Below, one piece after another: positions 23,958 through 41,046 of a stretch of DNA of 64,000 nucleotides. Both the position numbers and the translations under genes were made by a program. This stretch comes from Alphaproteobacteria bacterium (GTDB lineage: Bacteria; Pseudomonadota; Alphaproteobacteria; UBA828): NCBI GenBank assembly GCA_022826665.1, contig JAJDUK010000103.1, positions 124,001-188,000 on the forward strand. The letters are read 5' to 3'. Under the pieces are notes generated by a model. It saw only the letters and a program-made list of their open reading frames with translations. It was not told the DNA's origin and did not search any database. How positions within the stretch are numbered: the stretch's first letter is position 1; each line of letters starts with the position of its first letter.

Positions 23958-24025
23958 GGGCGATTTGAAGGGAGTGCCCCTGGAATTTGTTTCGACAACC
24001 GGTGCAACGAAGAGGAGATGGAACG

Positions 24026-25054
24026 ATGAATACCCCACTTCGCAAATTAGTCTTGCCCGGTCTGACCGCGGCGGGAATTGCGCTCGGCGCGATGGCTTTT
24101 CAGGCCGAGACTCAGAAGGCCGAAGCGGCGGAGAACTTCATCTTCGCGCACGCGATGAACGTCGATCACGTGTTCCACGCCATCTCGGAACGGTACATCG
24201 CCGACCTGGCGGACCAGAGCGGGATCGAGATCGAGTATCACCCGGGCGGCGATCTCGGCGACTGGACGTCGCTGTTCGAGCAGGCCATGCAGGGCGTCGT
24301 GCCGATGACGCTGACCTGGGCTTCGTCGGAATTCGACTCGCGGCTGGACCTCATCTACCTGGGCTACATCGTCTCCAACTGGGAGGACGCGGAGGCGCTC
24401 TACGGCCCCGGCGCCGGCATGCTCGGGGTGTACAACGACATGCTGGCCGACCTCGGCCTGTACGCTCTCGGAATCATTCCGACCGACTTCGGCTCCGTGG
24501 TGATCCGTAAGGGCGTCGGCGAGCTTCCGATGAACTTCCCCAATGACCCGGCCGGCATGAAGATCCGCGTGCCGGGGCTTGCGATCGCGGTCGACCGCTT
24601 CAACAGCTTCGGCTTCGCCGCAGTGCCCATTCCGCTTTCCGAGGTCCACACGGCCCTGCAGCTCGGGACCGTGGATGCGCGTTCGTTCTCGACCGCGGTC
24701 GAGACCTACACGCTGCGTGACGTGCTCGAGGCCAACATCCTTACCAACGACTACTTCGAGGTCGCCTTCTGGCTCGTGAACAAGGACTGGTGGGACGGCC
24801 TTTCCGAGGAAGATCGGACCGCCTTGCAGGCCGCCGCCGACAACACCATCGGCTGGTCCTGGACGGAAGCCAAGAGCAAGAGCGACGAGTTCCTGCAGAA
24901 GGCGCGCGATGCCGGCATCAACGTGGTCGAGTTGAGCGACGAGCAGATGAGCGCCGCAAAGCAGATCGTCTACGACAACGAGTGGCCGGCGATGGAAGCC
25001 GTCGTCGGCAAGGAGATCATGGACAAGATCCGGCAGATCGTCGGCGTCGAGTAG
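24026..25054 (+). CDS. dctP: TRAP transporter solute-binding protein (DctP family)
   Basis: A 342-residue protein with a signal peptide (LRKLVLPGLTAAGIALGAMAF, cut near AEAAEN). The DctP fold is seen in FIFAHAMNVDHVFHAISERYIADLADQSG and GMKIRVPGLAIAVDRFNSFGFAAVPIPLSEVHTALQLGTVDA, where an Arg usually clamps a substrate carboxylate. The strong ribosome site aggagatgg precedes ATG 24026. The substrate is probably an organic acid or zwitterion used by the neighbouring enzymes. It is separated from dctQ by a hairpin that can raise its expression relative to the membrane subunits. Confidence 0.93.
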   Translation: MNTPLRKLVLPGLTAAGIALGAMAFQAETQKAEAAENFIFAHAMNVDHVFHAISERYIADLADQSGIEIEYHPGGDLGDWTSLFEQAMQGVVPMTLTWASSEFDSRLDLIYLGYIVSNWEDAEALYGPGAGMLGVYNDMLADLGLYALGIIPTDFGSVVIRKGVGELPMNFPNDPAGMKIRVPGLAIAVDRFNSFGFAAVPIPLSEVHTALQLGTVDARSFSTAVETYTLRDVLEANILTNDYFEVAFWLVNKDWWDGLSEEDRTALQAAADNTIGWSWTEAKSKSDEFLQKARDAGINVVELSDEQMSAAKQIVYDNEWPAMEAVVGKEIMDKIRQIVGVE

Positions 25055-25082
25055 TGACTCCCGGTTGTACTCCAGTGACTGC

Positions 25083-25106
25083 GTCCGGGTGCTTCGGCAC
25101 CCGGAC
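25083..25106 (+). terminator. UUCG-capped hairpin between dctP and dctQ
   Basis: A perfect 10-bp stem gtccgggtgc / gcacccggac closes the stable tetraloop TTCG (25093-25096). Only a weak T-run (ggcttctt) follows, so it is more likely an mRNA-stabilising or partial-termination element than a full stop. Such a device raises binding-protein output over permease subunits. Confidence 0.6.
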
Positions 25107-25132
25107 GGCTTCTTGATCGGGGACTCGCCGAC

Positions 25133-25777
25133 GTGAGCCGGAAGTCGGACCTTCACTCCCGATCTTCCGAGGGTGCCTCGTCAACAATCGATGATCCCGA
25201 TTATGACCGGTCCGAACCGCCCGAGCGCCTGAGCCCACTGCCCACGGGCGCATTGGCGGAGAAGCTGCGCTGGGTGCTCTCCGTCGAGACCATCGTCCAG
25301 CGCATCCTCTACGTCTTCATCATCGTCTTCGGCCTCGCCCTCGCCGGGCTGATGTTCACCCAGGTCGTGCTGCGTTACGCCTTCGCCTCGCCGTTCGTGG
25401 GGATCGAGGAGCTGTCGCTGCTCTTCGGCGCTTGGTTCTATTTCCTCGGCATCGCCTACGTCACCCGCGACGGCGAGCACATCCACGGCGGCATCCTGAC
25501 CATGGTTGTGCGCAATCCGACCGCCGTGCAAACCGTCCGCTTGGTCGTGACCGTGCTCAGCGTCGGCGCATGCGCGATCTTCGGCTACTTCGCGATCAAG
25601 TATGCGCTCTTCGAGATCGGGACCGGGCGGCTCAGTTCGTACATGCGCTGGCCCAAGGGGTTGTGGTCGGCCTCGCTCATCGTCGGCTTCGTCGCGACCA
25701 CGGTCTACATGCTGCTTCAGGCGGTCCATCAGTTCCTGGACCTGCAAGCCCGCCTCCGCGCGTCGAGGCGGAGCTAG
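25133..25777 (+). CDS. dctQ: TRAP transporter small membrane subunit (DctQ family)
   Basis: A 214-residue protein starting at GTG 25133. It has a hydrophilic N-terminal extension of about 55 residues, then four hydrophobic helices (ILYVFIIVFGLALAGLMFTQV; FGAWFYFLGIAYV; LVVTVLSVGACAIFGYFAI; SASLIVGFVATTVYMLLQ). The motif LLFGAWFYFLGIAY with conserved Arg and Glu nearby is typical of DctQ. It works with DctM in sodium-driven uptake. Its stop is 2 bp before the dctM start. Confidence 0.92.
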   Translation: MSRKSDLHSRSSEGASSTIDDPDYDRSEPPERLSPLPTGALAEKLRWVLSVETIVQRILYVFIIVFGLALAGLMFTQVVLRYAFASPFVGIEELSLLFGAWFYFLGIAYVTRDGEHIHGGILTMVVRNPTAVQTVRLVVTVLSVGACAIFGYFAIKYALFEIGTGRLSSYMRWPKGLWSASLIVGFVATTVYMLLQAVHQFLDLQARLRASRRS

Positions 25778-25779
25778 CC

Positions 25780-27084
25780 GTGCTCGTCTTTCTCGGCTCT
25801 ATCGCGCTCGTCGTCATCCTGCTCTTGTCGGAGATGCCGATCGCGTTCGCCTTCGGCATCGGCGCGCTGGTGTTCGGCCTCGCGTCGGGCTCGGACATCT
25901 CCTTCCTCATCCCCTTCGCCTACCAAACGACCTCGAGCTTCGCCCTGCTCGCGCTGCCGCTCTTCGTGATGGCCGGCACCATCATGGCTGAAGGGGGGAT
26001 GTCCGATCGCCTGCTCAACTTCGTGAACGCGCTGGTCGGCAGGCTGAAGGGCGGGCTAGGCGCCGTGACCATCGTCACTTGCGCGCTGTTCGGCGCGATC
26101 TCCGGTTCGTCGTCGGCGGCCATCGCCGCCATCGGGTCGATCATGATTCCGCGCATGGTCCGGGAGGGATACCCGCCCGGCCATGCGACCGCGCTGGTGG
26201 CTTGCTCATCGGTGCTCGCGCTGATGATCCCACCCTCCATTCCCATGATCGTCTTTGCCGTCACTGGCGGAATCTCGGTGGGTGCAGCCTTTCTCTCAAC
26301 CATCATTCCCGGCGTCTTGCTGACGGTCGTCTATGTCGGCTTGAACTTCCTGTTCCTGCGCAAGGTGAAGACCATCACGGTCGAGGAACGGGTTCCGGCC
26401 CGCGTCGCGGTGCGCCGCGTGGGCACCACGGGCGCCAAGGCCTTCTGGGCGCTGCTGCTGCCGGTCTTCATCCTCGGCAGTATCTACTCCGGCATCGCGA
26501 CACCGACCGAGGCCGCCGCGATCGCCTTCGTCTACACGGTGGTCGTGGGCTTCGTGTTCTACCGGGGCCTCACATTGCAGAACTTCCCCAAGGCCATCGG
26601 GCGCGCGGCGGTCACGACTGGATCGATCATCGCAGTGCTGTTCTTCCTGTTCGTCATGAGCCGCGCGATGATTCTGGAACAGGTGCCGAAGGACGTGGCG
26701 GACGCACTGATCGCGCTGACCGAGAACCGCATCTTCGTGCTCCTGATGATCAACCTGATCCTGCTGCTGATCGGCATGATCGTGGATGATGTATCCGGCA
26801 GCGTGCTCGCGGCGATCGTGCTGCTGCCGGTGGCGACGAAGATCGGCGTCCATCCCATCCACTTCGCCGCGATCGTCGGCACCAATCTCGGGCTCGGCAA
26901 CGTCTCGCCGCCGTGCGCGCCGATGCTTTACATGGCTGCGGGGATCAGCAAGCTCTCGCTGGACAAGTATGTCGTGCCGACCATGAAGCTGTTGTGCTTG
27001 GGTCATCTGCCCATGGTGCTGATCGTCACCTTCATTCCCGACCTCTCGCTGGCACTGCCCAGGCTGGTCATGGGGATTGAATAA
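25780..27084 (+). CDS. dctM: TRAP transporter large membrane subunit (DctM family)
   Basis: A 434-residue, about 12-helix permease from GTG 25780, two bases after the dctQ stop. Family motifs are LPLFVMAGTIMAEGGMSDRLLNFVNALVG, GALFGAISGSSSAAIAAIG, MIPPSIPMI, GIATPTEAAAIAF and LGNVSPPCAPMLY. It forms the transport channel with DctQ and takes solute from DctP. The next gene starts 134 bp downstream, so the proline-racemase-like gene may be on the same transcript. Confidence 0.95.
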   Translation: MLVFLGSIALVVILLLSEMPIAFAFGIGALVFGLASGSDISFLIPFAYQTTSSFALLALPLFVMAGTIMAEGGMSDRLLNFVNALVGRLKGGLGAVTIVTCALFGAISGSSSAAIAAIGSIMIPRMVREGYPPGHATALVACSSVLALMIPPSIPMIVFAVTGGISVGAAFLSTIIPGVLLTVVYVGLNFLFLRKVKTITVEERVPARVAVRRVGTTGAKAFWALLLPVFILGSIYSGIATPTEAAAIAFVYTVVVGFVFYRGLTLQNFPKAIGRAAVTTGSIIAVLFFLFVMSRAMILEQVPKDVADALIALTENRIFVLLMINLILLLIGMIVDDVSGSVLAAIVLLPVATKIGVHPIHFAAIVGTNLGLGNVSPPCAPMLYMAAGISKLSLDKYVVPTMKLLCLGHLPMVLIVTFIPDLSLALPRLVMGIE

Positions 27085-27218: not shown

Positions 27219-28298
27219 ATGCGATCGCAACGCCTTGTGCAAATCGTCGGCTGCCATGCAGAAGGCGAGGTGGGCGATGTCATCATTGGCGGCGTCGCCC
27301 CGCCGCCGGGTGACACGCTCTGGCAGCAGTCCCGCTTTATCGCTCGCGACCAATCCCTGCGTCGCTTCGTGTTGAACGAGCCCCGCGGCGGCGTGTTTCG
27401 CCACGTCAACTTGCTGGTGCCGGCGAAGGATCCTCGCGCCGACATGGGCTTCATTATCATGGAGCCCGAGGACACGCCGCCGATGTCGGGATCGAACAGC
27501 CTCTGCGTCGCTACGGTGCTTCTGGAAACCGGCATCCTGCCGATGACCGAGCCCGAGACGGTGATGACTCTGGAAGCACCGGGCGGGCTTATCCGGGTAC
27601 ATGCCGCCTGCAGTGACGGACGCGTCGAGTCTGTCCGCGTGCACAACGTGGCCTCCTTCGCGGAACGGCTTGGGGCCGCGCTCGAGGTAGAGGGTCTGGG
27701 CACGCTTACGGTGGACACGGCTTACGGCGGCGACAGCTTCGTGCTGGTGGACTCGGAGGCGTTCGACTTCGCGCTCAGCCCCGACGAAGCGCGGGACATC
27801 GTCGAGACGGGGATTCGGATCACCCGTGCTGCTAACGAGCAGCTGGGATTCGCCCATCCCCAGAACCCCGATTGGCGCCATATCTCGTTCTGCCAGATCG
27901 CCGCGCCGCTTCAGAGTATCGACGGCGTTCCGACGGGCCGCAACGCCGTGGTGATCCGGCCGGGCAAGATCGACCGCAGCCCGACAGGCACCGGCTGCTC
28001 GGCACGCATGGCCGTGCTGCACGCTCGGGGCGAGCTTGAGATCGGCGACCGCTTCCGCGGAGTTTCGATCATCGATTCCGTTTTCGACTGCCGCATCGAG
28101 GGGGAAACCACGTTGGACGGACGCCGGGCGATTTTGCCGTCGGTCTCGGGTCGTGCCTGGCTGACCGGTACGACCCAGCTCCACCTCGACCCGCGCGATC
28201 CGTGGCCGGAGGGCTATCGGCTCAGCGACACCTGGCCTCCCAGCGCGGAGGCCCCTGCCCCCGCTCCCAACGATGGCGCTCACAGCAGCCACGATTAG
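27219..28298 (+). CDS. Proline-racemase-superfamily enzyme of the Ser-Cys type
   Basis: A 359-residue protein of the proline racemase / hydroxyproline epimerase / trans-3-hydroxyproline dehydratase superfamily. The first active-site residue, Cys in MCGH of racemases, is Ser90 in MSGSN. The second is Cys260 in SPTGTGC with nearby Asp252. Members with Cys-Cys epimerise, and members with Thr-Cys dehydrate trans-3-hydroxyproline. Ser-Cys members have been linked to hydroxyproline epimerisation, so the substrate is likely an imino acid or analogue. The C-terminal 20 residues are Ala/Pro-rich. It follows a TRAP transporter that may import the substrate. Confidence 0.88.
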
Positions 28299-28686: not shown

Positions 28687-29634
28687 ATGACTGTCCCTGC
28701 AACGCTCGATACCGTCGCCGTCGTGGGCAACGGCCTCGTCGGCCACGGCATGGCCCAGATTTTCGCGGCTGCGGGCCACCGGGTCGTCATGATCGGCCGG
28801 CGCGAGGGGAGCCTCGCCGCGGCGATGGACAATATTACGAAGAGCCTCGCCGCCTTCGAAGCACACGGGCTCGTCACGTCCGGTGGCGTGAGCGCCACCC
28901 TGGGACGCATCCGGACCTCCACCGATCTCAAGGACGCGGCGGAGGCGCAACTCGTCCTCGAGGCGGTGCCAGCCGATCGTGCGGTCCAGGACCAGGTGTA
29001 CGGGAGGCTCGATGCGATCTGCGCGCCGCCCGCCGTCTTCGCCTCTGGGAGCGGGCAGCCCGCGAGCGAGCTCGTGTCTAACGTCACGCATCGCGGGCGT
29101 GTGGTCGCCGCCCACTTCTGGTACCCGCCGCAGCTCATTCCCCTGGTCGAAGTCTGCGCCGGACCGGAGACCGACCCGGACGTGGCGCCCTGGCTCTGCG
29201 ACGTGCTCCGGGCAGCTGGAAAGGAACCGGTGATCGTCGACAAGGAGGTTCCGGGCTTTATCGGCAACCGGCTTCAGTACGCGATCCTACGCGAGGCCTG
29301 GGCGCTGTGGGCGGAGGGGGCGGCCTCGGCCGAGGCGATCGACACGGTAGTGAAGGCCTCCATCGGACGGCGTCTCGCGATCACCGGGCCCATCGAGTCC
29401 GCCGACGTAGGCGGCCTCGATACGCTACACGCGTTCGGCGCGTACCTCATCCCGCACCTGAATACGGGCTCCCAGCCCGCCTCTGCGGTGACCGCGCTGG
29501 TTGAGGCGGGGCATCGCGGTCTGCCCTCAGGCCGGGGGGTGTACGACTGGAGCGCGCGCGACGGCGCGGCGTTGCTCAAGGCACGCGAGGAGGAGCTGTT
29601 CCGTCACCTTGCCAGGGACAAGGCCCGACGCTGA
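28687..29634 (+). CDS. 3-hydroxyacyl-CoA / L-carnitine dehydrogenase-like NAD enzyme
   Basis: A 315-residue protein with the N-terminal Rossmann motif VVGNGLVGHGMAQIFAAAGH and a C-terminal helical domain starting at PGFIGNRLQYAILREAW. The catalytic His lies in AAHFWYPPQLIPLVEV, close to the HFxxPPxLIPLVEV pattern of carnitine dehydrogenase and short hydroxyacyl dehydrogenases. It would oxidise a beta-hydroxy acid or its CoA ester with NAD. It starts 98 bp after the dipeptidase remnant on the same strand and is probably the last gene of the catabolic locus. Confidence 0.85.
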   Translation: MTVPATLDTVAVVGNGLVGHGMAQIFAAAGHRVVMIGRREGSLAAAMDNITKSLAAFEAHGLVTSGGVSATLGRIRTSTDLKDAAEAQLVLEAVPADRAVQDQVYGRLDAICAPPAVFASGSGQPASELVSNVTHRGRVVAAHFWYPPQLIPLVEVCAGPETDPDVAPWLCDVLRAAGKEPVIVDKEVPGFIGNRLQYAILREAWALWAEGAASAEAIDTVVKASIGRRLAITGPIESADVGGLDTLHAFGAYLIPHLNTGSQPASAVTALVEAGHRGLPSGRGVYDWSARDGAALLKAREEELFRHLARDKARR

Positions 29635-30622: not shown

Positions 30623-31468
30623 CTACGCGGGCGCGGGCGCTCCGGGGACGGGGAGCGTCGGGATGCGATTCACATCCTTGTACAGCAGGTAACGGAAGAG
30701 CCCCGGCCCGCCGGCGTAGCAGGCCTGCGGACAGAAGGCGCGTAGCCACATGTAGTCGCCGGCCTCGACCTCTACCCAGTCCTGGTTGAGCCGGTACACC
30801 GCCTTACCCTCGAGCACGTAGAGCCCGTGCTCCATGACATGGGTCTCGGCGAAGGGAATGGACCCTCCCGGCTGGAAGGTCACGATGTTCACGTGCATGT
30901 CGTGGCGCAGGTCGCCCGAGTCTACGAAACGCGTGGTCGCCCAGGCACCGTCCGTGTCCGGCATCGGCACCGGCTCCACGTCGTGGTCGGACGTCACGAA
31001 GCACTCGGGCGCATCGATACCGTCCAGGGGCTGATACGCCTTACGGATCCAGTGGAAGCAGGCGGGCTCGCGCCCAGCGTTCGCCACCGACCAGCGCGCG
31101 GCCGGCGCGACATAGGCATAGCCGCCGGGCGCGAGCGTGTGCTTGGCGTTGTCGAGCGTGAGCCGCAATTCGCCGGCCATGACGAAGAGCACGCATTCGA
31201 CGTGCGCGTCCGGCTCGGGCCGCTCGCTGCCGCCGCCCGGCTCGAGCTCGACGATCGACTGGGAAAACGTCGTCGCGAATCCCGCGACCGGACGCGACAG
31301 CACCCACGCGCGAGCGCTCTGCCAGTGCGGAAAGTAGCTGGTGACGATGTCGCGCAGCACACCGCGCGGAATGACCGTGTACGCCTCGGTAATCACGGCG
31401 CGGTCGGTCAACAGCGTCTGCTGCGGCGGAAGGCCCGCCACCGGCGTGAAGTAGCTGCGTGCGCTCAT
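30623..31468 (-). CDS. allE: (S)-ureidoglycine aminohydrolase, bicupin
   Basis: A 281-residue two-cupin protein from ATG 31468. The N-terminal RSYFTPVAGLPPQ...LTDRAVITEAYTVIPRGVLRDIVTS and the C-terminal HDMHVNIVTFQPGGSIPFAETHVMEHGLYVLEGKAVYRLNQDWVEV match AllE/YlbA, whose second cupin binds Mn through the Glu/His set in this stretch. It releases ammonia from (S)-ureidoglycine in allantoin degradation. Other allantoin genes are not in the window apart from the possible glyoxylate aminotransferase at 6.9 kb. Confidence 0.92.
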   Translation of the reverse strand: MSARSYFTPVAGLPPQQTLLTDRAVITEAYTVIPRGVLRDIVTSYFPHWQSARAWVLSRPVAGFATTFSQSIVELEPGGGSERPEPDAHVECVLFVMAGELRLTLDNAKHTLAPGGYAYVAPAARWSVANAGREPACFHWIRKAYQPLDGIDAPECFVTSDHDVEPVPMPDTDGAWATTRFVDSGDLRHDMHVNIVTFQPGGSIPFAETHVMEHGLYVLEGKAVYRLNQDWVEVEAGDYMWLRAFCPQACYAGGPGLFRYLLYKDVNRIPTLPVPGAPAPA

Positions 31469-31598
31469 CGGTCGGCCAATGCTTGCCGAATGCTCATCAC
31501 GCACGTCCCCCCTTGCCAAGTCATTGCATCGTGCATGGCCGTCCGTCCCCCTGCCCAGCCGACATCGCGCGGACTCTGGCCTTGGGTTGGCGGGAAAA

Positions 31599-31675
<77 letters not shown>

Positions 31676-31833: not shown

Positions 31834-31890
31834 CACGTGGCGATTTGAGCGACCGGCTTGCGGCCACGCTAAACAAGCGCGCTAAAAGGT
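31834..31890 (+). ncRNA. SAM-II riboswitch (metA motif)
   Basis: The conserved alphaproteobacterial SAM-II core is seen in order: cgtggcgatttg (from 31836), accggcttgc, ggccacgctaaac, and gcgctaaaagg. The P1 stem pairs cgtgg (31836-31840) with ccacg (31864-31868), and the 3' gctaaa closes the pseudoknot. It precedes metZ, the classical target. Binding SAM should lower metZ expression. Confidence 0.88.
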
Positions 31891-31902
31891 CGAAGGGAGG
31901 GA

Positions 31903-31928
31903 CCCCGGCCAGCGCGGCCGGGGTTTTT
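31903..31928 (+). terminator. Intrinsic terminator between the SAM-II riboswitch and metZ
   Basis: An 8-bp G/C stem ccccggcc (31903-31910) / ggccgggg (31916-31923) with loop agcgc is followed by five T. It ends 4 bases before the metZ ATG. Placed just after the SAM-II aptamer, it is probably the expression platform, ending transcription when SAM is bound. The gaagggagg ribosome-like sequence lies on its 5' side. Confidence 0.8.
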
Positions 31929-31932
31929 GCAT

Positions 31933-33132
31933 ATGGGGCGGAGGACACGCGAGCGGGCCTGGTCACAGGCCACACAACTGGTGCGGGGCGGAATCGAGCG
32001 CTCGCAGCATGGCGAAACCAACGAGGCGCTCTACCTGACCTCGGGCTTCGTTTACGAGTCCGCCGCACAGGGCAATGCGCGCACGGCGGACGAAGAGGCC
32101 GGCTACGTCTACGGCCGCTTCGGCAACCCCACCGTCACCATGTTCGAGGACCGCCTCGCGCTGATCGAAGGCGCGGACGCCTGCCAGGCGACCGCCACCG
32201 GCATGGCGGCGGTCTTCGCGTCCCTGATGAGCCAGCTTCGCGCGGGCGACCACGTTGTCGCATCCCGCGTCATGTTCGGCGCATGCTACGTGGTGATCGA
32301 CCAGCTGCTGCCGCGCTACGGCATCGAGACCGATCTCGTGGACGGCACCGACCTCGGCGCGTGGGAGCGCGCGCTCAGGCCGGAGACCCGCTGCATCTTC
32401 CTCGAAAGCCCCGGCAACCCGACCATGCCGGTCGTCGACATCGCTGCGGTCTCGGCACTCGCGCACGGCGTCGGCGCCCGCGTCGTCGTGGACAACGTGC
32501 TCGGCATGCCGATCGTTCAGCGCCCCCTCGCCCTCGGCGCCGACGTCGTCATCTATTCCACGACCAAGCACATCGACGGCCAGGGCCGCTGCCTGGGCGG
32601 CGCCATCCTGGGCGACGAGACGTTCTTCGCGGACGATCTCGTGCCCTTCATGCGCACCACGGGCCCGGTCATGAGCCCCTTCAACGCCTGGGTCATGCTA
32701 AAGGGCCTGGAGACCCTGGAGCTGCGCACGGCCCGCATGTGCGAAACGGCGGAGCGGCTCGCGGCGTTTCTCGAAGGCCACCCCGCCGTGGCTGCCGTTC
32801 ACTATCCCGGCCTCGCGAGCCATCCCCAGCACGCGCTTGCGGCGCGCCAGATGAGCCGGGGCGGCAGCGTGATCGCGTTCGAGCTCGCGCGTGGGTGGGA
32901 CGCCGCCTTCCGCTTTCTCGATGCGCTGGAGCTGATCGACATCTCCAACAACCTCGGCGATGCCAAGAGCCTCGCCACCCATCCCGCCAGCACCACGCAC
33001 CAGAAGATCGGCGCGGACGCGCGGGCAACGCTTGGAATCGGCGACGGCCTTGTGCGCCTCTCGGTCGGGCTGGAGGCGGAGGAAGACCTGCGCGCCGACC
33101 TTGAGCAGGCCCTTGCTGCGGCCGGGGGCTAA
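31933..33132 (+). CDS. metZ: O-succinylhomoserine sulfhydrylase
   Basis: A 399-residue Cys/Met-metabolism PLP enzyme from ATG 31933. It has YVYGRFGNPTVTMFE (cofactor Tyr/Arg), ATATGMAAVFASLM, the Asp in VVVDNVLG, and the Schiff-base Lys in YSTTKHIDGQGRCLGG; the ending THPASTTHQ...GLVRLSVGLE is canonical. STTKHIDGQGR marks the MetZ branch, which makes homocysteine from O-succinylhomoserine and sulfide. The SAM-II riboswitch and terminator upstream support methionine biosynthesis. Confidence 0.93.
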   Translation: MGRRTRERAWSQATQLVRGGIERSQHGETNEALYLTSGFVYESAAQGNARTADEEAGYVYGRFGNPTVTMFEDRLALIEGADACQATATGMAAVFASLMSQLRAGDHVVASRVMFGACYVVIDQLLPRYGIETDLVDGTDLGAWERALRPETRCIFLESPGNPTMPVVDIAAVSALAHGVGARVVVDNVLGMPIVQRPLALGADVVIYSTTKHIDGQGRCLGGAILGDETFFADDLVPFMRTTGPVMSPFNAWVMLKGLETLELRTARMCETAERLAAFLEGHPAVAAVHYPGLASHPQHALAARQMSRGGSVIAFELARGWDAAFRFLDALELIDISNNLGDAKSLATHPASTTHQKIGADARATLGIGDGLVRLSVGLEAEEDLRADLEQALAAAGG

Positions 33133-33226: not shown

Positions 33227-33979
33227 ATGAGTCTGCTCGAAGTTCGCGAACTGTCCCGGCATTTCGGCGGCTTGGCCGCCGTGAACAACCTCACCTTCAC
33301 CGTGGACGAGGGCGCGATTCACGGGCTGATCGGCCCCAACGGTGCCGGCAAGACCACGACCTTCAACGTCATCAGCGGCTACTACAAGCCGACCGCCGGC
33401 GACATCGTGTTTGGCGGCCGCAAGATATCCGGGCTGCGCCCGAGCCGGATCGCGGCGCGGGGCGTGGTCCGCACCTTTCAGGCGACCACTCTGTTCCAGG
33501 AACTCACCGTCCTGGAGAATGTGCTGATCGGCTGCCACATGCAATCGAAGGTGGGCCCGTTCAGCGCGTTGCTGGGCACCAGTCGTCATGCCGAACGGGA
33601 GTCGGAGGCACGCGCCATAGAAATTCTCGAGTTCATGGGACTGGGTGAACGCCGCGACGACGAGACGGTCAACCTGCCGCACGGCAACCAACGGGCTCTG
33701 GGCATCGCGGTGGCGCTAGCGGCCGAGCCCAAGCTGATATTGCTCGACGAACCCTTCACCGGCATGAACCCCGAAGAGACGCGGCAGATGATGGTGCTGG
33801 TCGAGCGCGTGCGCAGCCAGGGCGTGACCATCCTCCTGGTCGAGCATGACATGCAGGCGGTCATGGGTCTTTGCGACCAGATCACGGTGCTGAGCTTCGG
33901 CGAGCTGCTGGCGGAAGGCACGCCCGACGAAATCCGGTCCGATCCGGCCGTGATCGAAGCCTATTTGGGAACCGCCTGA
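33227..33979 (+). CDS. ABC transporter ATPase of the LivG type
   Basis: A 250-residue ABC ATPase with Walker A GPNGAGKTT, the Q-loop region TFQATTLFQELTVLENV, and the LivG-type insertion between Q-loop and signature. The signature is LPHGNQRALGIAVALA, a variant of the LivG LPYGQQ form. Walker B is LILLDEPFTGMN, and the H-loop is VEHDM. LivG couples ATP hydrolysis to branched-chain amino acid or other amide and amino acid uptake. It is immediately followed by livF. No permease or binding-protein gene is adjacent. Confidence 0.88.
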   Translation: MSLLEVRELSRHFGGLAAVNNLTFTVDEGAIHGLIGPNGAGKTTTFNVISGYYKPTAGDIVFGGRKISGLRPSRIAARGVVRTFQATTLFQELTVLENVLIGCHMQSKVGPFSALLGTSRHAERESEARAIEILEFMGLGERRDDETVNLPHGNQRALGIAVALAAEPKLILLDEPFTGMNPEETRQMMVLVERVRSQGVTILLVEHDMQAVMGLCDQITVLSFGELLAEGTPDEIRSDPAVIEAYLGTA

Positions 33980-34687
33980 ATGCTGTTCCAGATCAAGTCG
34001 CTCTCGGTCCATTACCACAAGGTGCGCGCGCTGCGTGCGGTCTCGATGGAGGTCGACGAAGGCGACATCGTCACCCTGATCGGGGCCAACGGCGCGGGAA
34101 AGAGCACGACGCTGCGCACGGTCTCGGGCCTCGTGCGCGCGAGCGCAGGCGAGATCTGGTTCGACGGCGCACGCATCGACAAGCTCCCGGCCGACGAAGT
34201 GGTCAAGCGCGGCATCGCCCATGTGCCCGAGGGCCGGCACGTCTTCCCCGAGCTTACGGTCTTCGAGAACCTGAACACGGGCGCCTTCCTCCGCCGCGAC
34301 AGGGACGGGATCAAGCAGGACCTCGAAGCCGTCTACGAGCGCTTCCCGCGTCTCAAGGAGCGGCGCACCCAATACGGCAAGACACTCTCCGGCGGCGAAC
34401 AACAGATGCTGGCGATCGGCCGGGCCCTCATGGCGCGGCCCAAGCTGCTGCTGCTGGACGAGCCCTCCCTCGGGCTCTCACCGGTGATGGTGCAGGAGAT
34501 CGCCAAGATCATCGTCGATATCAATGCGCGCGGCGTGCCCGTAGTGCTGGTCGAACAGAATGCGGAACTCGCGCTCAAGCTCGCGCGCTACGCCTACGTG
34601 CTGGAAACCGGCCGCGTCGCGCTCGAAGGCGAGGCCGAACGGATTCGCGATGATCAGCATGTCCGCAAGGTGTACCTCGGCGGCTGA
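33980..34687 (+). CDS. ABC transporter ATPase of the LivF type
   Basis: A 235-residue ATPase whose ATG directly follows the livG-like stop. It has Walker A GANGAGKST, GIAHVPEGRHVFPELTVFENL (typical of LivF), signature LSGGEQQML, and Walker B LLLLDEPSLGLSPVMV. It pairs with the LivG-like protein. The following gene starts 31 bp downstream on the same strand, so LivGF, the ETF-beta fusion and ETF alpha may form one operon. The substrate is therefore possibly an amine that is later oxidised through the ETF system. Confidence 0.9.
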   Translation: MLFQIKSLSVHYHKVRALRAVSMEVDEGDIVTLIGANGAGKSTTLRTVSGLVRASAGEIWFDGARIDKLPADEVVKRGIAHVPEGRHVFPELTVFENLNTGAFLRRDRDGIKQDLEAVYERFPRLKERRTQYGKTLSGGEQQMLAIGRALMARPKLLLLDEPSLGLSPVMVQEIAKIIVDINARGVPVVLVEQNAELALKLARYAYVLETGRVALEGEAERIRDDQHVRKVYLGG

Positions 34688-34718: not shown

Positions 34719-37700
34719 GTGGAAACCCGCGAGCTCTTCTGGGAGATAAGCTCCCTCGGCCACACGCTCTTCTTCGTGGTGGCGGGCGCGGCGATGGCAG
34801 TCGCCTTTGCCGGCGTCGTCTGGCACGTCTACCGCTACGCCCGCGCACGGCGCAGCCCGGTCCCGGTCCACCCGTGGCGCGGCTTTTGGCGCATGGTGTT
34901 CGACGTCTTCTCGCAGCGGACCGTGCACCGGCGCGACCGCTCCGCCGGTCATGCCCACACCCCGATTCTCTACGGCTTCCTCCTGCTGCTGGCCGCCACC
35001 AGCATCATCACGGTCGAGTACGACATTTCGGAGCCCTTCTTCGGCTTCACCTTCTGGCACGGCGACTTCTACCTCGCCTTCAGCCTGATCGCCGACCTCG
35101 CCGGGCTCGGTCTCATCGTCGGCGTCGTCTACATGATGTGGCGCCGATGGCAGGTCCGGCCCGCGAAGCTCGCCTACCGCCGGGAGTATCGCGGCGAAAC
35201 GGAGACGCGCCCCCGCGCCCGCGCCTGGGAGTGGGACGACACGCTGTTCCTCTGGGCGCTGCTGCTGATCGGGGTGACCGGCTTCCTGCAGGAGGCCGTG
35301 CGGCTCGCCATGGATCAGCCGCCTTGGGGCCCGTGGTCGCCGGTCGGCTGGGTGCTCGCCCAGATCTTCCTCGGGCTCGGCATGGACGAGGCCGCCGCCG
35401 CTGCGATACGACGTGCCAACTGGTGGATCCACGGCATCGCAGCCCTGGCCTTCATCGCGGGCATCCCCTGGACCAAGGCCAAGCACATCCTCGCCGTGCT
35501 CGGCTCGCTCTCGACCCGCGACGCCCTCGCTCTGCGCCGCCTGCCCAAGCCCGCGCCCGCCCGCGCGGCCGCCGCAGACGACACCGAGCCGGAGCCGGAG
35601 GTCGGCTTCGGCAGCATCGCCCAGTTCTCGTGGAAGGACCTGCTCAACCTCGACGCCTGCACCAAGTGCGGCCGTTGCCACGAGGCCTGCCCGGCCACTG
35701 CCAGCGGCGCACCGCTCAGCCCGCGCGACCTGATCCTCGACCTGCGCGCCCACGCCGCGCAGAGCGCCTTCAGGCCGGGGGCGAATGGTGCTGCGCTGAT
35801 CGGCGACGTGATCGAGGCGGAGACGCTCTGGTCCTGCCGCTCCTGCGGCGCCTGCATGGAGATCTGCCCGGTCGGCATCGAGCACCCGCCGATGATCGTG
35901 CAGATGCGGCGCCAGCTGGTCGAGGACGGCGCCATGGAGCAGCAGCTCCGCGACACCCTCGACATGATCGCCAATCGCGGCAACAGCTTTGGTGAGAGCC
36001 CGCGCAGCCGCGGCGGCTGGACGTCCGCCCTGGAGTTCCCGGTCAAGGACGTCCGGGCCGAGCCGGCCGAAAACCTCTGGTTCGTGGGCGACTACGCCTC
36101 CTACGACCCGCGCAACCAGGACGTCTCGCGCACCGTCGCGCGGCTCTTCCGCGCTGCCGGCCTCGACTTCGGCCTGCTCTACGAGAGCGAGCGGACCGCC
36201 GGCAACGACGTGCGTCGCGTCGGCGAGGAAGGGCTCTTCGAATCCCTCGCCGAGCACAACCTGGAGGCGATGGGCGCGGCCAAGCAGTTCGACGCGATCG
36301 TGACCACCGACCCCCACAGCTACAACACCATCCGCAACGAGTATCCGGACTTCGGCGAGGTCGCGCCGATCCGCCACTACACGAGCGTCCTCGCCGAGCT
36401 GCTGGAGAGCGGGCGGCTCACCGTCGTCAAGCCGCTCGGCAGGCGGGTGACGCTCCACGACCCCTGCCATCTCGGCCGGTTCAACGGCCACTACGACGAG
36501 CCGCGCCGGGTGCTGGAGCTGATCGGCTGCGAGCTGGTCGACATGCCCCGCTGCCGCGACAACTCCTTCTGCTGCGGCGCCGGCGGCGGACGCATCTGGA
36601 TCCCCGATCCCGTCGGCAAGGAGCGCCCAGCCGAGAACCGGATGCACGAAGCGGCGTCTCTCGGTAATCTCGACGCCTTCGTCGTCTGCTGCCCCAAGGA
36701 CATGACCATGTTCGAGGACGCCCGCAAGACCAGCGGCCACGAGGGCGACTTCGTCGTCCAGGACCTGGCGGAGCTGGTCGCCGAGGCCATCGACCTGAAG
36801 AGCATCGACCTCAAGGAGGTGCCGGCGCTGGTCGATCGCATCACCGAGGCCGCCGCGACCCGCATCGCCGACACCGTGGCTGACCGACTGGCCGAGCGTC
36901 TCGCCGAAACCGTAACCGAGCGGGTGCTGAGCGAGCTTGCCGACCGGGCCCCGACGCTTACCGCAGCCGCCGCGGCGTCGCAACCGGCGTCGGCGCCAAA
37001 GCCCGAGCAGCAGGCTGAGGCGGCGCCCGCCTCCGGCCCGTGGCGCGCGGCCCCGGTCACTGCGGCGACGCTGCCTCCCTACGAGGTGCCGGCGAAGGAA
37101 GGCCCCCGCCTGCTGGTCGCGGTCAAGCGGGTCGGCGAGCTGAACCCCGACTTCGCCATCGATGAAGCCGGCGGCACGATCGCCGACGAGCACTTCGAGT
37201 ACGAGTTGAACGAGTGGGACGAGGCGGCACTGGAGGAGGCGCTGCTGCTGACCGAGCGGCTCGAGGCGGGTGAGGTGGTCGCCGTCACCATCGGCCCGGA
37301 CGATGCCGAAGAAACCCTGCGCCGCGCGCTCGCCAAGGGCGCGCACCGGGGCGTCCGGGTGTGGGACGAGAGCCTGCGCGACGCCGACCCGGTAACCCTC
37401 GCCCGTGTGCTCGCGGGAGTCGCCGCGCAGGAGACGCCGGACATCGTACTCACCGGTGCGCAGTCGGCCGATCTCGGCCACGGCGCCACGGGCTCTGCGC
37501 TGGCCCGCATCCTCGGCCTGCCGCATGCGGCGGTCGTACTCGGCATCGAGTGGGACGGCGCAGACGCGATGACCGTCACCCGCGAGCTGGAAGGCGGCAT
37601 GCGCCAGCAGCTCACGCTGCCGGCGCCAGCGCTGCTCACCGTCCAGACCGGCGGTAGCACGCCGCGTTACGCCACCATGCGCATGATCAAGCAGGCCAGG

Positions 37701-37877
37701 AAGAAGCCAATCGCCGTGGTGGATGGCGCGGGCGTCGGCCTCGAACAGGCGGGCGCCGTCGTGCGCCGGCTCTACGAGCCGCCCAAGTCCGGGCGCGCCG
37801 CGATGATCGAGGGCGACGCAGAAGCAGTCGCCAAGGCCATCGCGGACATCATTCGAGACAAGCGGGGAGAGGTGTGA
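34719..37877 (+). CDS. Fusion: DgcB-like membrane Fe-S oxidoreductase + ETF beta
   Basis: A 1052-residue protein from GTG 34719. Residues about 1-270 hold several membrane helices of the NarI/DsrM-like cytochrome or DUF3483 kind. Two 4Fe-4S motifs follow, CTKCGRCHEACP (from 314) and CRSCGACMEICP (from 373). The HdrD-like CCG region has CHLGRFNG, FCCGAGGG (618-625) and VVCCPKD. An amphipathic helix (LVDRITEAAATRIADTV) and Ala/Pro linker lead to a complete ETF beta domain from about residue 795 (LLVAVKRVGELN, VAVTIGPDDAEETLRRALAKGA, ARKKPIAVV). In Pseudomonas dimethylglycine catabolism DgcB and EtfB are separate. It should pass electrons from flavin dehydrogenases to quinone in one polypeptide. 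Confidence 0.9.
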   Translation: METRELFWEISSLGHTLFFVVAGAAMAVAFAGVVWHVYRYARARRSPVPVHPWRGFWRMVFDVFSQRTVHRRDRSAGHAHTPILYGFLLLLAATSIITVEYDISEPFFGFTFWHGDFYLAFSLIADLAGLGLIVGVVYMMWRRWQVRPAKLAYRREYRGETETRPRARAWEWDDTLFLWALLLIGVTGFLQEAVRLAMDQPPWGPWSPVGWVLAQIFLGLGMDEAAAAAIRRANWWIHGIAALAFIAGIPWTKAKHILAVLGSLSTRDALALRRLPKPAPARAAAADDTEPEPEVGFGSIAQFSWKDLLNLDACTKCGRCHEACPATASGAPLSPRDLILDLRAHAAQSAFRPGANGAALIGDVIEAETLWSCRSCGACMEICPVGIEHPPMIVQMRRQLVEDGAMEQQLRDTLDMIANRGNSFGESPRSRGGWTSALEFPVKDVRAEPAENLWFVGDYASYDPRNQDVSRTVARLFRAAGLDFGLLYESERTAGNDVRRVGEEGLFESLAEHNLEAMGAAKQFDAIVTTDPHSYNTIRNEYPDFGEVAPIRHYTSVLAELLESGRLTVVKPLGRRVTLHDPCHLGRFNGHYDEPRRVLELIGCELVDMPRCRDNSFCCGAGGGRIWIPDPVGKERPAENRMHEAASLGNLDAFVVCCPKDMTMFEDARKTSGHEGDFVVQDLAELVAEAIDLKSIDLKEVPALVDRITEAAATRIADTVADRLAERLAETVTERVLSELADRAPTLTAAAAASQPASAPKPEQQAEAAPASGPWRAAPVTAATLPPYEVPAKEGPRLLVAVKRVGELNPDFAIDEAGGTIADEHFEYELNEWDEAALEEALLLTERLEAGEVVAVTIGPDDAEETLRRALAKGAHRGVRVWDESLRDADPVTLARVLAGVAAQETPDIVLTGAQSADLGHGATGSALARILGLPHAAVVLGIEWDGADAMTVTRELEGGMRQQLTLPAPALLTVQTGGSTPRYATMRMIKQARKKPIAVVDGAGVGLEQAGAVVRRLYEPPKSGRAAMIEGDAEAVAKAIADIIRDKRGEV

Positions 37878-38842
37878 TGGCCGGAATCCTCGTCGTCGCC
37901 GAGCACTTCGATGGTGTCCTGCGCGACGTCACGCTCGAGATGATCGGCGCTGCCGCCGAGATCAAGGACGGCCTCGGCGGCCCGCTCGCCGTCCTCGTCA
38001 TCGGTCAGGATGTAGACGCGCTCGCCTCTGCGGCCAACCTGGAGGGAGTCGACGAGATCGTCACCGTCGCGCAGGCGGACGCGCACTTCGATCCCGCGCT
38101 CTATGAGGAAGCGGTTTGCGCCGTCGCCGAGGCGCGGCAGGTCCGGCTGGTCCTGATCGGCCACACCGCCGCCGGCATGGCCTTTGGGCCGGCGGTCGCC
38201 GCGAGGCTCGGCTCGGGCTTCGCCTCCGACGTCTTCGGGCTCACACTCGACGGTGCTGAGCCCATCGCGACCCGCAGCGGTTACGGCGGCAAGGTCTCGA
38301 TGGACCTCGCCTTTCCGGACAAGCCCGTGATCGTGCTGACGCTTCGCGGCGCGACCTTCAAGGCGCCAGAAGAGGCGGGCAGCGCGAGCATCGCTTCCTT
38401 CACGGTCGAGCTCGACGCCGTGCCCGGCGCCGGCACCCACATTGATTATCTGCCCGCGCCGCCCGCCGACGTGGATATCGGCAAGGCGGAGTTCATCCTC
38501 TCGGTCGGCCGCGCCCTCGGCGAAGACACGAACCTGCCTCAGTTCTCGGCGCTCGCAGAGCGGCTCGGCGCCACCCTCGGCTGCTCGCGTCCGGTCGCGG
38601 ATTCGGGCTGGCTGCCCAAGGCCCACCAGGTCGGCCAGTCCGGCACGATCGCGGGCAACTGCTCACTCTATCTGGCCTTGGGTATCTCCGGCGCGGTTCA
38701 ACACCTGGCCGGCATGAAGCACGTGGACACCATCATCGCGGTCAACACCGACCCGGAGGCGCCGATCTTCAACGTCGCCCACCACGGCGCCTGCGTTGAC
38801 ATCTTCGAACTCGCCGAGGCCCTGGAGCGCGAGTTCAACTGA
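37877..38842 (+). CDS. etfA: Electron transfer flavoprotein alpha subunit
   Basis: A 321-residue protein. ATG at 37877 overlaps the fusion gene stop by one base (TGATG); a GTG at 37874 is an alternative start. The N-terminal domain begins ILVVAEHFDG. The FAD-binding domain carries GCSRPVADSGWLPKAHQVGQSG, ALGISGAVQHLAGMK and IIAVNTDPEAPIF, all canonical. It must dimerise with the ETF beta domain fused to the membrane Fe-S protein, since no free etfB is nearby. Its stop faces the BBOX-like gene stop 15 bp away. Confidence 0.95.
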   Translation: MAGILVVAEHFDGVLRDVTLEMIGAAAEIKDGLGGPLAVLVIGQDVDALASAANLEGVDEIVTVAQADAHFDPALYEEAVCAVAEARQVRLVLIGHTAAGMAFGPAVAARLGSGFASDVFGLTLDGAEPIATRSGYGGKVSMDLAFPDKPVIVLTLRGATFKAPEEAGSASIASFTVELDAVPGAGTHIDYLPAPPADVDIGKAEFILSVGRALGEDTNLPQFSALAERLGATLGCSRPVADSGWLPKAHQVGQSGTIAGNCSLYLALGISGAVQHLAGMKHVDTIIAVNTDPEAPIFNVAHHGACVDIFELAEALEREFN

Positions 38843-39969: not shown

Positions 39970-41046
39970 TTACGCTGCGGAGCCGACGGCCTCCCGCACC
40001 ATCTCGTGAAAGTAGAACACGCCGTTCTCGTGGAGCGGGCTGAGCGGGCCCGCATCGTACACGCCGGCCTCTAGGTTCTCCTGAATGATCGGCGTGATCC
40101 ATTGGTCCTCCTTCGAAACCTGGACGCCGTATTCCAACGTCGCCTCGAAGTCCTCCATGCTGACAGAGTCTGGCCGCCAGTAGTCGTAGACCAGGCGCGT
40201 CTGGCGCGGGCCGACCGGCTCCATCCGCATGAAAGAAAGCCCGTCCGGATAAGAGTTGAACGCAAAATGGGGAAAACGCCAACCGAAAGCGCCGGGGTGG
40301 TTCGAGCTCCCCTTGGTCGGAGCCTCGTGAAGGCTGCCGCCCTCGAAGTTGATGACCCTGTAGCGCTTCCAGTCGAGGTCGCGATGCAATCCGGGGTGCA
40401 GCGGAGGGATGTGATAGCCCTCCTGGTAGTTGTCGACATAGGTCTTCCAGTTGCAGTCGACAAGAAACTCCAGCCGGCGTCCAAAATCGGCACGTGCCGG
40501 TGCGGTTCGCTCCACTGCGTCCTCGATCGGGCCAAGCCACTTAATGAGCGGCTGCGCCTCCGGGTCCAGGCACACGAAGACTTGGCCGCGCCAGACATCG
40601 ACCGAGATCGGGAACAGAGACAACTCATCCGTCGGAAAGTTTGGCGCCTCGCCGAACAGCGGCACATGGTCTAGCGCGCCATCTGACCGATAACGCCAGC
40701 CGTGATAAGGGCATTCGAGGGTGCGGCAACGCCCGCTCGGCTCGGTCAGCAGCTTCGACGCCCGATGCCGGCACACGTTGTGGAAGCCGTGGAGCGCGCC
40801 GTCTTCCGAGCGGCGAACGAAGAGCGGAAACTCAGCGGGAGCGGCCGTGATGTATTGTCCCGGCTCCGCCACGTCGCCCTCGCGCCCGATCCAAAGCCAA
40901 TGGCGCGAGAAAATGCTCCGTCGCTCGATCTGATAGATGTCGGGATCGGCGTACCAGCGCGCCGGCAGCGCCCACACGGTGGCCGCTTCCATCCGCTCGT
41001 TGATGCCACCGACGAGGTCGTTGGCCGATCGTCCGGCAGACGCCAT
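39970..41046 (-). CDS. Rieske non-heme iron oxygenase, large subunit
   Basis: A 358-residue oxygenase. The Rieske ligands are C-R-H in VCRHRASKL and CPYHGWRY. The catalytic iron triad lies in NWKTYVDNYQEGYHIPPLHPGLH. The length and VDNYQEGYH pattern fit the choline-monooxygenase, carnitine-oxygenase and glycine-betaine-monooxygenase group, which hydroxylate N-methyl or quaternary amines, although aromatic ring demethylases are also similar. It is followed by the gamma-butyrobetaine-hydroxylase-like gene, supporting a trimethylammonium substrate. No reductase gene is adjacent. Confidence 0.87.
   Translation of the reverse strand: MASAGRSANDLVGGINERMEAATVWALPARWYADPDIYQIERRSIFSRHWLWIGREGDVAEPGQYITAAPAEFPLFVRRSEDGALHGFHNVCRHRASKLLTEPSGRCRTLECPYHGWRYRSDGALDHVPLFGEAPNFPTDELSLFPISVDVWRGQVFVCLDPEAQPLIKWLGPIEDAVERTAPARADFGRRLEFLVDCNWKTYVDNYQEGYHIPPLHPGLHRDLDWKRYRVINFEGGSLHEAPTKGSSNHPGAFGWRFPHFAFNSYPDGLSFMRMEPVGPRQTRLVYDYWRPDSVSMEDFEATLEYGVQVSKEDQWITPIIQENLEAGVYDAGPLSPLHENGVFYFHEMVREAVGSAA

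Follow-up and report, generated by a model that had tools for sequence, protein, structure and literature searches.

A natural fusion of an EtfD-like membrane iron-sulfur protein with electron transfer flavoprotein beta as a candidate quinone link for trimethylamine dehydrogenase-type demethylases

We identify a natural fusion of an EtfD-like membrane iron-sulfur (Fe-S) protein with the beta subunit of electron transfer flavoprotein (ETF) in a 64,000-nucleotide stretch, here called the window, of an alphaproteobacterial draft genome (assembly GCA_022826665.1, contig JAJDUK010000103.1, positions 124,001 to 188,000). The fused gene is a single open frame with a GTG start that encodes 1052 amino acids with no internal stop, and the gene for the ETF alpha subunit, etfA, overlaps its end. 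We propose that the product is probably a membrane-tethered ETF:quinone oxidoreductase (ETF-QO) that would serve amine demethylases of the trimethylamine dehydrogenase (TMADH) type.

Domain and homology searches locate both halves in the one polypeptide. Pfam assigns a Fer4 dicluster to residues 311-387, a CCG domain to 577-660 and an ETF domain to 820-1002; in phmmer comparisons residues 60-807 align to EtfD (solved structure 9ojn) and residues 797-1050 to a complete ETF beta; the ETF domain of the fusion covers positions 3-177 of the 181 in PF01012. The N-terminus, METRELFW or VETRELFW, is kept among relatives. These results bear out an earlier note on this DNA, made from the sequence alone, which had described an uninterrupted 1052-codon frame in which a membrane Fe-S quinone reductase, having two 4Fe-4S motifs and a CCG domain, is joined through an Ala/Pro linker to complete ETF beta.

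The same architecture recurs in other genomes. Scanning genome contigs for two peptide patterns of the membrane region yielded 39 related loci from other genomes, a lower bound because the patterns were exact. Both halves share a single frame in 34 of these loci; in four the contig breaks off ahead of the ETF part, and in the remaining one (L068, Herminiimonas) the halves are truly split. The taxa represented include Rhodospirillales, Rhodobacteraceae, Mesorhizobium, Shinella, Hyphomicrobium, Castellaniella, Zoogloeaceae, Glaciimonas and gammaproteobacterial metagenome-assembled genomes (MAGs). Isolates with the single-frame fusion include Castellaniella defragrans DSM 12141 and Mesorhizobium sophorae, and a complete Shinella plasmid also carries it in one frame. 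Within the genus, five other genomes hold the gene at 85-96% identity (four complete, one broken over two contigs), and genomes from the same family, order and class hold it at 65-71%. A spurious join of two genes, whether from sequencing, a concern raised in the earlier note, or from assembly, might be suspected in a draft genome of 106 contigs, the more so as there are split relatives in which etfB and the gene for the Fe-S protein stand apart. Because the single frame is conserved across separate genomes, isolates and the complete plasmid among them, we treat such an error as excluded and its likelihood as negligible.

The fusion is rare yet spread over three classes, the Alpha-, Beta- and Gammaproteobacteria. 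In a class sample of 289 genomes, 11 matched at 1e-60; about five of these have the fusion, and one (G265) has the two parts as separate, neighbouring genes. Across a phylum sample of 398 genomes the fusion was present in the window's own genome and was not found in the other 397, of which 30 encode a separate Fe-S protein. The separate systems are already known (EtfD, DgcB with ETF, and DUF224 with EtfAB); a published account of the fusion of reductase to ETF beta was not found in full-text literature searches, for which subscription papers were largely beyond reach, and the fusion is apparently undescribed. The earlier note had asked whether it was already widespread or described, and neither proved so in this sample or among the searchable papers. 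In a tree of the Fe-S half, all fused rows fall on one side of a branch with support of 97/96, recovered in 96% of bootstrap trees; a wider tree with long-branched rows supports the division between fused and other rows more weakly (72/23). The first of these topologies is consistent with one origin of the fusion. One copy, 93% identical to the alphaproteobacterial gene, comes from a MAG labelled Chloroflexota (L035, JAPPNP010000037.1) that is likely mislabelled or misbinned.

The closest solved relative of the membrane half is mycobacterial EtfD (MSMEG_0690 / Rv0338c), solved from Mycobacterium smegmatis (9ojn), both by sequence (E 1.1e-69) and by fold (775 columns, TM-score 0.72 on target). 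Both proteins have, in the same order, a membrane domain for haem b, two sites for 4Fe-4S clusters and a CCG region, and the haem and cluster ligand positions are conserved; unlike the fusion, EtfD has no ETF beta domain. An AlphaFold2 (AF2) model of the fusion, of moderate quality (pLDDT confidence score 72.9, pTM fold score 0.52), predicts membrane helices at residues 12-41, 74-108, 115-145, 165-199 and 224-265. His80 and His256 align with His78 and His241 of EtfD and are kept in every aligned relative with that column, and the eight cysteines of the predicted cubane clusters (Cys314-324 and Cys373-383) are invariant across the alignment.

A site-by-site comparison, with EtfD ligand positions taken from PMC13083937, separates the fusion from EtfD at two clusters. 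The noncubane cluster D2 of EtfD is ligated by five cysteines and one histidine (PMC13083937). The fusion keeps four of the cysteines and the conserved histidine (His533, just upstream of the CCG domain), and has Asp661 in place of EtfD Cys712; the adjacent Cys657 could stand in for the missing ligand. Asp661 (window positions 36699-36701) occupies the last D2 cysteine position in every fused row that covers the column, as well as in several split relatives, and a cysteine is retained there by Paracoccus aminovorans, G265 and one haloarchaeon. The four cysteines of the linear 3Fe-4S cluster D1 of EtfD are absent from the fusion, the aligned positions being D, T, D and S. The D1 cysteines are absent from FadF and DgcB as well (PMC13083937), so that D1 is not required for the wider EtfD-like group, but the fusion falls outside EtfD as strictly defined. 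We also reject the label DgcB/DUF3483-like that the earlier note had given to this half: DUF3483 (PF11982) had no match among the proteins scanned (the window fusion, two more fused proteins and split relatives), while two ordinary DgcBs, used as positive controls, match at ~1e-87.

For both ETF subunits the closest solved relative is the ETF of Methylophilus methylotrophus W3A1 with TMADH (1o94). The ETF beta half matches chain 1o94_C (E 1.2e-58; 1o94/1o96 by Foldseek, TM-score up to 0.86 on target) and EtfA matches 1o94_D (E 1.3e-86). The solved Methylophilus ETF is a heterodimer of free beta and alpha chains, whereas here beta lies covalently within a membrane protein. EtfA, which the earlier note had named as the partner, does carry both ETF alpha domains (PF01012 and PF00766). 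Its gene overlaps the fusion by 4 bp with the stop codon counted; the overlap of one base reported before is right if the stop codon is left out.

As in the Methylophilus TMADH-ETF system, a TMADH-family enzyme is encoded by the window's genome and by most relatives. A gene for such a flavoprotein lies directly upstream of the fusion-type gene in 23 of the 39 loci, and the upstream protein of one (L071) matches TMADH (1djn) at 8.5e-303. We compared Cys30, Tyr60, Ser74, Trp105, Trp264, Trp355, His172, Asp267 and the four cluster cysteines (1djn-alignment numbering), which are functionally important pocket and cofactor residues of TMADH. Nine upstream TMADH-family proteins on the fused side retain every residue tested, and the upstream genes of alphaproteobacterial relatives keep the TMADH pocket. 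Four loci (L042, L047, L062 and L064) hold livKHMGF-tmd-fusion-etfA-gcvT as one block. The neighbourhoods in relatives thus suggest a role in degrading trimethylamine-type compounds. In the window's genome livG, livF, the fusion and etfA lie in the window, and TMADH, a gcvT-like gene, livK, livH and livM lie on another contig, C84. Because genes that are contiguous elsewhere are split here between window and C84, the window appears to carry half of a cluster that has been divided, and synteny in other genomes suggests that the C84 genes work with those of the window. The C84 TMADH has the full residue set tested, including Cys30, Tyr60, Trp264, Trp355 and the four cluster cysteines. On contigs C58 and C51 (L076-L079) the same genome encodes four more paralogues of the TMADH family (44-59%), whose pocket residues are altered.

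From the conserved frame, domains, ligand positions and neighbourhoods we infer a cofactor content and a direction of electron flow, from TMADH-type donors to quinone. An EtfD-like electron wire, with noncubane D2, two 4Fe-4S clusters, haem b and a quinone site, would bear an ETF beta of its own at the end of a flexible C-terminal tether. The EtfA encoded by the next gene would bind the tethered beta and hold FAD; a TMADH-family demethylase, encoded elsewhere in the genome, would reduce this FAD, which would then hand electrons singly to D2 and onward to the quinone pool. The complete route would run from the amine through the flavin and 4Fe-4S cluster of TMADH to the FAD of EtfA on tethered beta, and from there through D2, D3, D4 and haem b to quinone.

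The linker is the predicted tether in this scheme. In the window protein it comprises a long helix (698-739, AF2), an Ala/Pro-rich stretch and a conserved Trp/Pro/Tyr motif before ETF beta, with pLDDT below 50 over most of 695-777. Relatives span 72-175 residues between residue 690 and ETF beta, and usually show a regular helical part, an Ala/Pro-rich part without fixed length or sequence, and a short Trp/Pro/Tyr motif. Where the fusion has its linker, EtfD ends in a disordered tail rich in Ala and Pro, and AlphaFold3 predicts that EtfD touches ETF through this tail (PMC13083937). Because the tether is long, variable and predicted to be largely disordered, ETF is probably kept near the reductase yet mobile; the fixed complex envisaged in the earlier note thus stands as to proximity but probably not as to rigidity. 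More tentative, and in our judgement somewhat doubtful, is the combined proposal that ETF is here no longer a diffusing carrier but a covalently membrane-held, dedicated relay for TMADH-type demethylases, and that the ligand set of D2, the cluster where electrons enter, has changed, with an invariant aspartate in place of one EtfD cysteine.

Several observations weigh against a role as quinone link for TMADH-type demethylases. In the window's genome the fusion is not adjacent to the TMADH gene, which lies on another contig, and the aligned enzyme differs at TMADH residues 442 and 344, which are important for contact with ETF. A TMADH paralogue whose pocket is changed occurs in many of the betaproteobacterial relatives; because Phe occupies position 355 and Asp position 172, these enzymes likely act on another substrate, so that the donor substrate would vary. 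The AF2 model gives nothing reliable on docking. Finally, an ETF-QO (contig C80) and a second, free etfAB pair (C14) are present in the same genome, and the proposed wiring is not forced; the earlier note's report of no free etfB or ETF-QO nearby is correct for the window but does not extend to the genome. In Agrobacterium S33 a TMADH-family enzyme works through free EtfAB and ETF-QO (PMC7688666). Given the second etfAB and the ETF-QO, the fusion is probably a specialised route and not the sole ETF route of its genome.

These additional genes also bear on whether the fusion is instead a general ETF hub that takes electrons from many flavin dehydrogenases, for example in acyl-CoA oxidation, like mycobacterial EtfD. 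Homology to EtfD, which has a role in beta-oxidation (PMC8593149), and a 3-hydroxyacyl-CoA dehydrogenase-family gene at 28687-29634 would fit such a hub. We nevertheless find it quite improbable, since the genome has the separate etfAB pair and ETF-QO for that task, no acyl-CoA dehydrogenase is among the identified conserved neighbours, and the genes that do adjoin the fusion encode TMADH, GcvT-like proteins and Liv transporters.

The dimethylglycine setting given in the earlier note implies another function, in which the fusion would serve dimethylglycine or betaine demethylation of the DgcA-DgcB type and not TMADH. DgcA too has an NADH:flavin oxidoreductase domain (PMC12093977), the genome has the four additional TMADH-family paralogues, and a Rieske ring-hydroxylating oxygenase gene, weakly GbcA-like, lies just downstream of the fusion here (39970-41046, minus strand) and in five near relatives. 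The Rieske protein, however, scores 135 bits, far below the GbcA cut-off of 670 bits; DUF3483 is absent though ordinary DgcBs have it; and the closest ETF is the TMADH partner, with TMADH-type genes beside the fusion in relatives and the TMADH pocket kept in the alphaproteobacterial ones. We therefore consider this function unlikely. The dgcAB-fixAB operons of Pseudomonas aeruginosa and Vibrio natriegens do resemble the fusion locus in combining a flavin demethylase, a membrane Fe-S protein and ETF (PMC12093977), but DgcB has DUF3483 and separate ETF genes, whereas here DUF3483 was not detected and ETF beta is fused.

Split relatives of the fusion preserve the same gene order. Plasmid clusters of Azoarcus sp. 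KH32C and Paracoccus aminovorans hold a TMADH-family gene, the Fe-S membrane protein (52-54% identical), etfB and etfA, but as separate genes, and etfB is set apart from the Fe-S protein gene by an extra gene for a leucine-rich-repeat-variant (LRV) protein. Where split relatives are annotated, in two cases, its product is an LRV-repeat hypothetical protein of ~460-480 aa (L090:10015-11460 and L091:10058-11443); the fused genes lack any separate gene there. The DUF224/EtfAB system of Syntrophomonas wolfei also has clustered genes and a membrane Fe-S protein proposed to pass electrons from EtfAB to menaquinone, but there the genes are separate, the pathway is butyrate oxidation and no fusion is reported (PMC3582634).

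The mode of ETF contact by EtfD-type reductases is unsettled (PMC13083937). In a pull-down from M. tuberculosis, EtfD brought EtfB and not EtfA (PMC8593149), which agrees with attachment on the beta side; a natural reductase-EtfB fusion that is kept in three classes of Proteobacteria is independent support for EtfB as the subunit that makes the contact. For structural studies the fusion could serve directly as a single-chain construct, and it is a specific candidate for the link between trimethylamine dehydrogenase and quinone.

Table 1. Features of the fusion locus, in window coordinates
Feature	Position	Strand	Basis
Fused gene, EtfD-like membrane Fe-S/haem b quinone reductase (predicted cofactors) + ETF beta	34719..37877	+	One open frame, domains, relatives
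Membrane region, five long helices; predicted haem b ligands His80, His256	34752..35513	+	AF2 helices, EtfD alignment
Two 4Fe-4S sites (predicted clusters D4, D3): Cys314, 317, 320, 324 and Cys373, 376, 379, 383	35640..35879	+	Pfam Fer4_8/Fer4_9
CCG domain, predicted noncubane cluster D2: Cys583, 618, 619, 658	36447..36698	+	PF02754, site-by-site comparison with EtfD
Linker, residues 691-796	36789..37106	+	Linker comparison, AF2
ETF beta domain, residues 797-1052	37107..37874	+	PF01012, phmmer, Foldseek
etfA, ETF alpha subunit (FAD-binding)	37874..38842	+	PF01012 + PF00766
livG-type ABC (ATP-binding cassette) transporter ATPase, same cluster	33227..33979	+	ABC_tran + BCA_ABC_TP_C; syntenic with tmd-fusion operons
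livF-type ABC transporter ATPase, same cluster	33980..34687	+	ABC_tran; best NCBIfam match LivF; syntenic with tmd-fusion operons

Upstream of the fusion, the livF-type gene ends 31 bp before its start. Open reading frames at 30827-31636 and 31845-33104 were considered as liv permeases and rejected, as they had no Pfam match; the likely gene in the second region, at 31927-33132 and in another frame, is O-succinylhomoserine sulfhydrylase. Further upstream, the plus-strand gene at 27219-28298 belongs to the proline racemase family and scores above the NCBIfam cut-off for trans-3-hydroxy-L-proline dehydratase; tripartite ATP-independent periplasmic (TRAP) transporter genes at 23987-27084 adjoin it.

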